A DNA stretch of 64,000 nt from Lysinibacillus sphaericus (GTDB lineage: Bacteria > Bacillota > Bacilli > Bacillales_A > Planococcaceae): the NCBI RefSeq assembly GCF_001629735.1, contig NZ_CP015224.1, forward strand, positions 4,154,001-4,218,000, written 5' to 3'. The notes under the pieces are model-generated. The model did no database searches. It saw only the letters and a program-made list of their open reading frames with translations, and had not been told where the DNA came from. Numbering within the stretch: the first letter of the stretch is position 1; each line of letters starts with the position of its first letter. The translations under genes were made by a program, and so were the position numbers. Below are positions 24,403 to 35,973 of this stretch, one piece after another.

Positions 24403-24834
24403 ATGTCATTGCCTAATGCGATTCCAAGACCACTGGTACGACTTAATCAATGGACGATTCTATTAAGTGTGTTTGTCACATGGATAACAGGAGCCATATG
24501 GGTTTTAGTCATTCCATTGGTTGCAAATTTAATGGGAGTATTCTGTAACTATAATCCTATTATTCGTTTTGGGAGGTTGTTTCTTAAAAAAGCTCCATCT
24601 ACCTATATACCAGAGGATGCGCAGCAACAAAAATTTAATGCCAGTATAGCTAGCTTTTGTTTATCTGGTGGCTTGTTAGGCTATCTATTAAATTGGCAGG
24701 TAGTAGGTCATATCTTTACGGCAATGGTAGCGGTAGCTTCTTCCGTTGCTATAGCTGGTTTCTGTATAGGCTGTTTTTTATATTTTCAACTGAAGCAATG
24801 GCAGTATCGCCGCTCGTTAAAAAAATCTTTTTAA
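24403..24834 (+). CDS. DUF4395 membrane protein
   Basis: This 143-residue protein begins MSLPNAIPRPLVRLNQW, the DUF4395 N-terminal pattern, has about four membrane helices in two pairs (about 15-50 and 80-130), and carries a FCIGCF motif near the end. DUF4395 proteins occur widely in Bacillales and are sometimes next to thioredoxin-like proteins; their function is unknown. ATG 24403 is preceded by GAAAGGTGGG; an earlier in-frame ATG (24349) has no ribosome site. Confidence 0.85.
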   Translation: MSLPNAIPRPLVRLNQWTILLSVFVTWITGAIWVLVIPLVANLMGVFCNYNPIIRFGRLFLKKAPSTYIPEDAQQQKFNASIASFCLSGGLLGYLLNWQVVGHIFTAMVAVASSVAIAGFCIGCFLYFQLKQWQYRRSLKKSF

Positions 24835-24853: not shown

Positions 24854-24893
24854 TTGACAATTTAATTGATAATGATTATCATTATCGTATAAA
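24854..24893 (+). promoter_or_regulatory. Fur-controlled promoter with near-perfect Fur box
   Basis: GATAATGATTATCATTATC (24868-24886) differs from the classic 19-bp Fur box at one position. It overlaps a promoter that can be read two ways: TTGACA (24854) -17- TATCAT (24877), or TTGATA (24866) -16- TATAAA (24888). In both cases Fur binding would block RNA polymerase. No protein gene of normal size follows before the terminator at 25017-25056. Confidence 0.85.
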
Positions 24894-25056
24894 GATTATT
24901 CCTCCACTACAATACAGTGTAGAGAGGATGAACTTTAGCTACTTTTCTCCAGAAGTTTGCTAGTTCATGATTACGCTCCTAAAACCCCCCTCATTTTTTG
25001 GGAACGTGAAAATCTCAGACGACTCTTTCTATTATAGAATGGAGTCGTCTTTTTTT
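24890..25056 (+). ncRNA. Putative Fur-regulated C-rich small RNA
   Basis: The Fur-box promoter and the terminator define a transcript of about 155-165 nt. It contains a small CTACA/TGTAG hairpin (24905-24922), a longer hairpin (24930-24966) with CTCC in its loop, an open CCCCCCTC stretch (24985-24992), further pyrimidine tracts (TTCCTCC, GCTCC), and a strong terminal hairpin. C-rich single-stranded tracts able to pair with GGAGG ribosome sites are the hallmark of iron-sparing RNAs such as B. subtilis FsrA and S. aureus IsrR. An 11-codon ORF (24928-24963, MNFSYFSPEVC) behind AGAGG could also be translated. Function is inferred from layout, not from a known homologue. Confidence 0.7.
25017..25056 (+). 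terminator. Terminator of the putative small RNA
   Basis: Perfect 9-bp arms AGACGACTC/GAGTCGTCT, extended inward by TTTCTAT/ATAGAA pairing, are followed by TTTTTT. Confidence 0.88.
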
Positions 25057-25086
25057 ATCTTTTATTTTAATACAGCTACGGAGCTG

Positions 25087-26049
25087 TTAGGCAGAAGGCG
25101 TTTGTTGGACCGACCTTTTTTTTCCTAGAATCATTGTGTAATAACTGTGCAGTAGCATTCCGACAATAATGACGCCTAGACCTGCGAGAGCAATTGAGTT
25201 AGGGAATGGTATACCTAATAGTATTACTTCACCAATAATGACAAAAAGAATTTCTGTTGACTGTGTCGCTTCAACAGCAGCTAGTTTGCCCTGATGATCT
25301 CTCACATGATCTGTTGCAATGAAAAATAAAATAGTTGCAATGACGCCTGAACTAATACCAACAAGTAATGATTGGAATAACTGGCTTGTGGAGGGAAGGC
25401 CGACTGTGAACAGGGCATAAATAGCCATGATAATCCATGCTGGCATCGATGCGATTGTCATACCAAGAACGCGTTGGAAGGTATCAATACGCCCTCCACA
25501 GACGTGCATCATTTTACGATTGCCGAGTGGATAAGCAAATGCAGCGACGATGACAGGTAAAATTCCAAGCATTAAACTTTTAAACGAAACTGATTGTGCT
25601 TGAGGTATTTGGATTAGTAAAATACCTACTAATATGACGCAAGAGATTAGAAGTGAAATGAAGGGTATTTTTTGACGTACTTTTCTCTCTGCAATAACGG
25701 TCATAAAGAGTGGAGCTAATAATACACCAGCAACAATGGTAAATTGCCAAGTGCCAGAAACCAGCCAGCCTGGACCAAATGCTGCTGCATAAGTTAACGG
25801 TGCATAGAATAAAACAAATCCTACAAAGCTCCAAAGAAGCCAAGCTGTAGGTTGTGCTTTTATTTCGCTAGATAATTGTGAAAAGCCTTTGCGATAAAAC
25901 ACAATGATAAGTAAAAAGGGTAGCATAAAAAAATACCGTAATGATGCACTCCATAGCCAGCTACCTCCTTGCATTTCCATGGCATGATTTAAAATAAATG
26001 TTACAGCAAAGAAAAGGGAAGCTACTATGCCTATAGCAATTTCTTTCAT
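25087..26049 (-). CDS. EmrE-type multidrug/metabolite efflux transporter (DMT superfamily)
   Basis: This 320-residue protein has about ten membrane helices and the fold of the Bacillales multidrug resistance efflux family (PF13536-like) within the drug/metabolite transporter superfamily. Conserved features include a charged segment DHVRDHQGKLAAVEATQSTEI near the last third. The substrate is unknown. ATG 26049 is chosen because AGGTGAT precedes it; the upstream ATG at 26073 lacks a ribosome site. Confidence 0.75.
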   Translation of the reverse strand: MKEIAIGIVASLFFAVTFILNHAMEMQGGSWLWSASLRYFFMLPFLLIIVFYRKGFSQLSSEIKAQPTAWLLWSFVGFVLFYAPLTYAAAFGPGWLVSGTWQFTIVAGVLLAPLFMTVIAERKVRQKIPFISLLISCVILVGILLIQIPQAQSVSFKSLMLGILPVIVAAFAYPLGNRKMMHVCGGRIDTFQRVLGMTIASMPAWIIMAIYALFTVGLPSTSQLFQSLLVGISSGVIATILFFIATDHVRDHQGKLAAVEATQSTEILFVIIGEVILLGIPFPNSIALAGLGVIIVGMLLHSYYTMILGKKRSVQQTPSA

Positions 26050-26197
26050 AATGATCACCTCGATTTGACTCATAATTCAAATTATTTATGTAATTAGAAT
26101 ATTCAGTAATTAATAGTGAGAAAATGACGAAGAAAGGATAGTACCTTCCTCCGTTATCTTTCAATTCTGTTTAAAAACTTCTTGGGCACAAGGTAAA

Positions 26198-35857: not shown

Positions 35858-35973
35858 CTCTTATCAAGAGCGGCGGAGGGATAGGCCCTATGATGCCCGG
35901 CAACCAGTAGGTGATGAACTTACTAAGGTGCTAATTCCTACAGATTCTTACTTGGATCTGGCAGATAAGGGGA
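35858..35973 (+). ncRNA. SAM-I (S-box) riboswitch
   Basis: The conserved S-box core is unmistakable: CTCTTATCAAGAGCGGCGG, then GGGATAGGCCCTATGATGCC with CGGCAACC, then AAGGTGCTAATTCCTAC, closed by AGATAAGGGG pairing back to CTCTTATC (P1). S-adenosylmethionine binding stabilises P1 and lets the downstream terminator form, switching metY off when SAM is high. Confidence 0.97.

Follow-up and report, generated by a model that had tools for sequence, protein, structure and literature searches.

A candidate Fur-repressed small RNA with conserved C-rich loops in Lysinibacillus and related genera and its predicted iron-sparing targets

Introduction

Between a DUF4395 gene that ends at position 24834 and a gene for an EmrE-type transporter (25087-26073, opposite direction) in a Lysinibacillus genome lies a short stretch headed by a Fur box, which raises the question of whether this bacterium makes an iron-sparing small RNA (sRNA) and, if so, which mRNAs such an RNA would address and whether it belongs to a family already described. 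A first-pass annotation of the window, that is, the whole 64-kb stretch of DNA analysed, had proposed here a Fur-repressed, C-rich RNA that pairs with ribosome sites, the counterpart in this genus of FsrA and IsrR and perhaps a dual-function RNA. Among the papers listed in searches of the literature open in PubMed Central, none dealt with such an RNA in Lysinibacillus or its family.

A predicted Fur-controlled transcription unit

The features of the locus are collected in Table 1. Its promoter agrees with the consensus at 11 of 12 positions and was the best of nine candidates in a promoter scan of the region; similar promoters are present upstream of the homologues described below, except for two promoter-less copies (L047 and L050). 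The Fur box agrees with what we take to be the Fur consensus at all 19 positions and overlaps the promoter, and it is the sole place in the window within three mismatches of that consensus (shuffle mean, 0.08); being palindromic, it is reported for either strand. No normal gene overlaps 24889-25056, and the gene-free stretch ends, as had been noticed, in a strong terminator, whose stem and T7 were overlooked by a simple terminator scan and are visible in the fold. An origin as the leader of the downstream gene is ruled out, since that gene is oriented oppositely. In silico, the unit amounts to an independent short transcript with its own terminator and without a conserved protein frame, under a putative Fur operator that lies over the RNA promoter and is conserved, as would be expected of a Fur-repressed iron-sparing sRNA. 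Elsewhere in the window, a SAM riboswitch (S-box leader) is found at 35858-35971 (90.2 bits).

Table 1. Features of the locus, in coordinates of the window
Feature	Coordinates	Strand	Remarks
Sigma-A-type promoter	24854..24882	+	-35 TTGACA (24854-24859), 17-nt spacer, -10 TATCAT (24877-24882)
Fur box GATAATGATTATCATTATC	24868..24886	+	19/19 to consensus; covers the -10 element
Predicted small RNA	24889..25056	+	about 168 nt; 5' end deduced from the position of the -10 element, 3' end from that of the T-tract
Hairpin 1 (5' hairpin)	24901..24927	+	differs among genera; missing from the compact form in G032
Hairpin 2	24928..24968	+	four-base loop CUCC (CTCC at 24947-24950)
11-codon ORF MNFSYFSPEVC	24928..24963	+	judged not to be a gene
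Motif 1 CTTTTCTCCA	24942..24951	+	no variation in 43/43 aligned homologues; complementary without mismatch to UGGAGAAAAG of the acnA leader
Hairpin 3	24971..25009	+	stem sequence genus-dependent; C-run in the loop
Motif 2 ACCCCCCTCA	24984..24993	+	in the hairpin 3 loop; core CCCCCT invariant, remainder nearly so
Intrinsic terminator	25017..25056	+	15-pair stem with bulge (25017-25050) and T7 (25050-25056)

Fold and conserved loops

The calculated folding energy of the RNA (24889-25058) is -52.8 kcal/mol, whereas shuffles average -29.3 (z = -6.4), and none of 200 shuffles folded as well. The hairpin with CTCC in its loop, seen already at first pass, is reproduced by the fold as hairpin 2. The C-run, previously described as an open segment, is instead a hairpin loop, because the fold places CCCCCCTCATT (written as RNA, CCCCCCUCAUU) in the eleven-base loop of hairpin 3 (24985-24995).

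Two loop motifs, CUUUUCUCCA and the C-run, usually ACCCCCCUCA, are held while the stems around them change. Among 43 distinct aligned homologues there is no exception to CUUUUCUCCA and none to the CCCCCU of the C-run, the C-run having been demanded of the rows of this alignment and motif 1 not; five of the 59 fetched loci (L039, L040, L047, L050 and L056) were dropped for want of the expected C-run or promoter. Loci obtained by pattern search contain both motifs by construction, and invariance is therefore cited solely from the 43-row alignment. CUCC sits inside a hairpin of six or more pairs in 53 of the 55 distinct sequences examined, and in every one of the 55 the C-run is closed by seven or more pairs; a test made sequence by sequence against flanks shuffled base by base gave median z-scores of -2.5 (hairpin 2) and -2.8 (hairpin 3). 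On a stricter count of free loops, 4 of the 55 fail at hairpin 2 and 24 at hairpin 3, pairing in the latter taking up one or two of the outer C. Judged from sequence, changing stems that enclose constant motifs have the appearance of presented pairing loops. RNAalifold returned only five pairs on the alignment (A1), because hairpins 1 and 3 vary in length among genera; with so few consensus pairs, the family model built for the searches below (R1) is mostly a sequence model, and divergent forms are missed.

Distribution

Homologues occur in all 32 genomes of the same genus that were searched. In a DNA search of 101 genomes, these 32 gave full or near-full matches and other genera partial ones; 64 of the 101 were matched, part of them through promoter and Fur box alone. 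R1, built from 43 homologues, found matches in 98 of the 200 family members searched, representing 13 of 19 genera, and 10 of 398 Bacilli genomes, all within that same family. In a 14th genus (G032) the RNA takes a compact form that has both motif hairpins and follows a Fur box of 17/19 (R1 E-value, 0.011). Homologues are thus present in 14 of the 19 sampled genera of the family, and the RNA is not restricted to one genus. It should be noted that absence of the RNA means absence by R1 with strict filters, plus the exact motif pattern for eight genomes of five genera, and that both miss divergent forms.

A motif-pattern search of named genomes yielded 66 places in 63 stretches, 57 of them in the family, namely in Lysinibacillus, Viridibacillus, Caryophanon, Kurthia, Rummeliibacillus, Paenisporosarcina, Psychrobacillus, Metasolibacillus, Metalysinibacillus, Chryseomicrobium, Tetzosporium and Bacillus ndiopicus. 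A Fur box of at least 14/19 stands upstream at 52 of the 57 in-family places versus none of the nine outside, which come from unrelated organisms or loosely named MAGs and score at most 12/19. The five in-family places below 14/19 comprise three second tandem copies (Caryophanon), a promoter-less copy (L. sphaericus OT4b.31) and one at the edge of its stretch. When the pattern was searched in 12 genomes and all 43 resulting places were examined, a Fur box of at least 14/19 occurred only in G032 and G041.

Relation to known iron-sparing RNAs

Rfam gave nothing above threshold at the locus; there were seven matches far below gathering scores, and membership of an Rfam family is rejected on these scores (best E = 0.64), in keeping with the earlier statement that no homologue was described. 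FsrA of Bacillus subtilis (RF02273) resembles the Lysinibacillus RNA in its regulation by Fur, its C-rich pairing regions and its targets, which include sdhC and citB/aconitase according to the parts of PMC8216469 drawn on here, but it has 83 model positions against about 168 nt. RF02273 matched neither the own genome nor the other 36 searched genomes of the family; in 61 genomes it found one match (G073, outside the family), the B. subtilis control being positive. The FsrA example from G073 is without CUUUUCUCCA. Scans of the window with Rfam gave no FsrA. Homology to FsrA is rejected, RF02273 being silent in the own genome and R1 having no FsrA match.

IsrR of Staphylococcus aureus is likewise Fur-repressed, of similar length (174 nt) and composed of three stem-loops and a terminator, with C-rich regions that lie partly in loops and pair with Shine-Dalgarno regions (PMC9410917, in the parts consulted). 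It has two Fur boxes, whereas one was found here, and it lies between arlR and pgpB, so that synteny with the Lysinibacillus RNA, between DUF4395 and EmrE-type transporter genes, does not hold. The comparison was made through an IsrR orthologue inferred in G068 (in L334) from gene neighbours, Fur-like boxes and C-runs, situated between a PAP2 gene and a response-regulator gene that we take to be arlR. R1 gave no match at E ≤ 10 in L334, and homology to IsrR is rejected on this comparison, the inferred orthologue having C-runs but no CUUUUCUCC. RyhB and PrrF follow the same Fur-repressed iron-sparing logic and are duplicated in some species, as is the RNA in some genomes here, but they are proteobacterial and Hfq-dependent (PMC9410917, same parts), and the Lysinibacillus RNA has no Rfam match. 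By the tests made, the RNA appears to work like FsrA and IsrR and yet to be a member of neither family.

Candidate target sites in the Lysinibacillus genome

Aconitase and sdhC were picked beforehand as known FsrA targets. Both sdhC and citB are among these (PMC8216469), and aconitase mRNA is a target of all the iron-sparing RNAs discussed in PMC9410917, as far as the parts of the two papers used here go. Target prediction on aconitase and succinate dehydrogenase, proposed at first pass, gave perfect complements upstream of both acnA and sdhC. The acnA leader carries TTGGAGAAAAG 40 nt before its AGGGGG ribosome site, and TGGAGAAAAG (RNA form UGGAGAAAAG) is the exact complement of motif 1 and lies at the predicted 5' end of the acnA mRNA. 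This end is placed at about TTGGAG by TTTACT-17-TATCAT, read from the sequence in front of the gene. Motif 2 is complementary to ribosome sites: that of sdhC, AGGGGGGT (RNA form AGGGGGGU), is the exact complement of ACCCCCCT within it, and UGAGGGG at the ilvD ribosome site is a perfect complement of the C-run loop. Complementarity to the ribosome sites of iron enzymes is found for acnA, sdhC and ilvD, with the genus exceptions set out below.

Among 1086 sampled genes, acnA alone has TGGAGAAAAG within 100 nt upstream of its start. The sample is unbiased and spans a quarter of the own genome, namely 59 stretches in addition to the window, with gene starts assigned by a simple script; sdhC was fetched on purpose and stands outside the set. 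Over the own genome, TGGAGAAAAG occurs at 41 places, 30 of which were viewed, versus 15 for a control read backwards. Ranked by duplex energy with the motif 1 loop, acnA comes 7th of 1086; with the C-loop, ilvD comes 3rd and acnA 166th, and sdhC would equal the 14th. The top of the C-loop ranking is mixed, led by trpB and a MerR-type regulator, and its first 40 genes, for the naming of which ten proteins were scanned with NCBIfam and six with Pfam, hold three library-named iron-sulfur proteins (ilvD, a Fer4_20 dihydropyrimidine-dehydrogenase-like subunit and sda_beta). The own-genome target ranking is not cleanly enriched. Cofolding of the RNA core with the acnA leader, computed without a control, is 5.9 kcal/mol better than the two apart.

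Comparison across genera

The leaders of acnA, sdhC and ilvD were compared across 19 genera, 14 with the RNA and five without. Mean pairing energy to the loops was -19.3 with the RNA versus -14.3 without it for acnA (one-sided p = 0.005), -17.7 versus -15.3 for sdhC (p = 0.008) and -11.7 (13 genera) versus -7.2 for ilvD (p = 0.046), p-values that overstate independence, because as few as one or two changes on a tree of AcnA suffice for the presence label and the genera are therefore not independent. The ribosomal anti-SD sequence, taken as a control on the same leaders, showed no gain with the RNA (p = 0.99, 0.77 and 0.76 for acnA, sdhC and ilvD, respectively). The energy comparison leaves out L421 (sdhC of G055, where the upstream stretch is not a leader) and the second ilvD matches L454 and L455, and for acnA it leaves out G115, G112, G047 and G035.

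At sdhC, GGGGGG is present in 12 of the 14 RNA-positive genera and GGGGG in the other two (g5 and g11); GGGAGGG or GAGGAGGG stands there in three of the five RNA-negative ones. In g5, the C-run has five C in both fetched genomes, and the sdhC site of G053, the one whose sdhC was fetched, has five G (UUUGAGGGGGU; DNA form TTTGAGGGGGT). There are exceptions. Genus g4 has no detected RNA and yet keeps AGGGGGGT at sdhC, and g13, also without detected RNA, keeps TGGAGAAAAG in acnA. Among RNA-positive genera, the sdhC site of g11 scores -12.8 to the consensus loop, worse than all five negative genera, the acnA site of g2 (-14.4) falls within the range of the negative ones, and the ilvD complementarity is missing in g2, g5, g7 and g10. 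With these exceptions and so few changes on the tree, the cross-genus result is support, not proof.

The acnA leader also contains a hairpin, GAAAAG...CUUUUC (read by eye; for example, in L178, L222 and L233), which overlaps the motif 1 site at the predicted 5' end, is present in some genera without detected RNA as well and could explain part of the conservation of the site. The target matches might be coincidental, reflecting G-rich ribosome sites and a cis-acting acnA hairpin conserved independently, with the RNA acting on other targets. The reach of the hairpin beyond RNA-positive genera, the exceptions g4, g11 and g13 and the one or two changes on the AcnA tree would all suit such an explanation, which is nevertheless unlikely: the UGGA of the acnA element does not belong to the hairpin and is present in 14 of 14 RNA-positive genera and, among the five negative ones, in g13 only, the anti-SD control shows no gain, and C5 is matched by G5 in G053.

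Proposed function

The conservation of the RNA, its absence from Rfam and the matching sites at acnA, sdhC and ilvD support the proposal of a counterpart to FsrA and IsrR, a Fur-repressed C-rich RNA that pairs with ribosome sites, and the conserved promoter, Fur box, hairpins and loops accord with it. With a probability of roughly 0.8, the locus is that of a Fur-repressed, trans-acting antisense iron-sparing sRNA of a new C-loop family. The promoter, Fur box, structure, conservation and complementarity on which this reading is based are all features of sequence, and from them we infer Fur binding, expression, pairing in the cell and an effect on the targets. When iron is sufficient, Fur would sit on its box over the -10 element and block transcription. 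When iron is low, the RNA would be made and its two loops would base-pair with the messages for iron-using enzymes. The C-run loop ACCCCCCUCA would mask the ribosome sites of sdhC, ilvD and acnA (AGGGGG in the last), and the CUUUUCUCCA loop would pair with UGGAGAAAAG at the predicted 5' end of the acnA mRNA. Less aconitase, succinate dehydrogenase and dihydroxy-acid dehydratase would be translated, and iron would be spared.

A Fur-regulated RNA could also bind a protein or sponge another RNA without pairing to the mRNAs of iron enzymes. Long constant loop motifs would suit a protein ligand too, and RosA in B. subtilis is a sponge for C-rich sRNAs (PMC8216469, in the parts cited above), but the motifs here are C-rich, not G-rich as in RosA, target complementarity tracks the presence of the RNA whereas anti-SD pairing does not, and the full motif 1 complement stands upstream of acnA only among the sampled genes, which makes this explanation quite improbable.

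Least probable of all, and very much so, is a Fur-regulated microprotein (MNFSYFSPEVC) encoded by the RNA, either as its only role or next to a regulatory one. In its favour, an ATG follows AGAGG, and 34 of 64 distinct family sequences keep the frame up to its stop. Against it, no ATG, GTG or TTG stands at the position in 28, the start codon varies among the other 36 (26 ATG, 7 TTG and 3 GTG), two more sequences overrun the stop, AGAGG abuts the ATG with zero spacing, and the frame falls within hairpin 2, for the conservation of which structure and loop account. The 11-codon ORF noticed at first pass exists, but the suggestion of a dual function is not supported; a small protein as the product is rejected, the frame not being conserved.

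If the locus does encode an antisense iron-sparing sRNA, many genera of one bacterial family would gain the iron-sparing RNA that they have so far lacked, and Gram-positive bacteria would have one more solution, apparently unrelated to FsrA and IsrR, which fits the idea of repeated origin. Deeply conserved but with gaps, and occurring in duplicate, in tandem and in compact two-hairpin forms, it would make a good system for studying the co-evolution of sRNAs and their targets, and the site at the acnA 5' end would offer a specific, testable mechanism.

Companion RNA, copies and variants

A second Fur-box promoter in the own genome leads into a candidate RNA of about 105 nt (G000:C1, from the promoter at 1093053 to 1092913, minus strand; L280), in which TTTCTTTTCTCCA is unpaired and CCCCCTC lies in a hairpin loop, followed by a terminator and then by fumC. 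The latter codes for a class II fumarate hydratase (TIGR00979) and starts 187 nt from the companion promoter. At the companion locus of 20 further same-genus genomes, promoter and C-run are present in all 20, exact motif 1 in 11 and a fumC start within 500 nt in 18.

A more specific form of the antisense reading, offered tentatively and with rather more doubt than confidence, is that of a two-seed RNA, in which CUUUUCUCCA on UGGAGAAAAG at the predicted acnA +1 would break the conserved 5'-terminal hairpin and the shorter fumC RNA would co-act. The target of the second seed would be the very start of the acnA mRNA instead of a ribosome site, the acnA +1 would fall within two bases of UUGGAGAAAAG, and loss of 5'-end protection would be coupled with the blocking of the ribosome site by the C-run loop. 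Fe-S enzymes would be silenced, with the gene for a class II fumarase placed behind the same kind of Fur promoter.

Several genomes hold more than one copy of the longer RNA. Tandem RNA genes, separated by about 240 nt and with a promoter in front of each, are present in L041 (G046) and in the Caryophanon records L107, L124 and L139, and the second tandem copies in these three Caryophanon records have weaker Fur boxes (12-13 of 19). A second full-length copy elsewhere in the genome (L044, L045, L046 and L051-L055) occurs in 8 of 29 same-genus genomes among the matches listed. The copies in L047 (G006) and L050 (G014) are without promoter and Fur box and are probably decaying duplicates. In genus g11, L039 and L040 (G041 and G059) represent a divergent form behind a 19/19 Fur box, with C6 in the first hairpin loop, CUCC in a free segment and C5 in a later hairpin loop, a layout closer to that of IsrR. 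Finally, L056 (G044) has a Fur box ahead of a putative transcript that contains a GTTCCCCCCAG segment, TTTTCTCC and CCCC in a hairpin loop and may be another paralogue.
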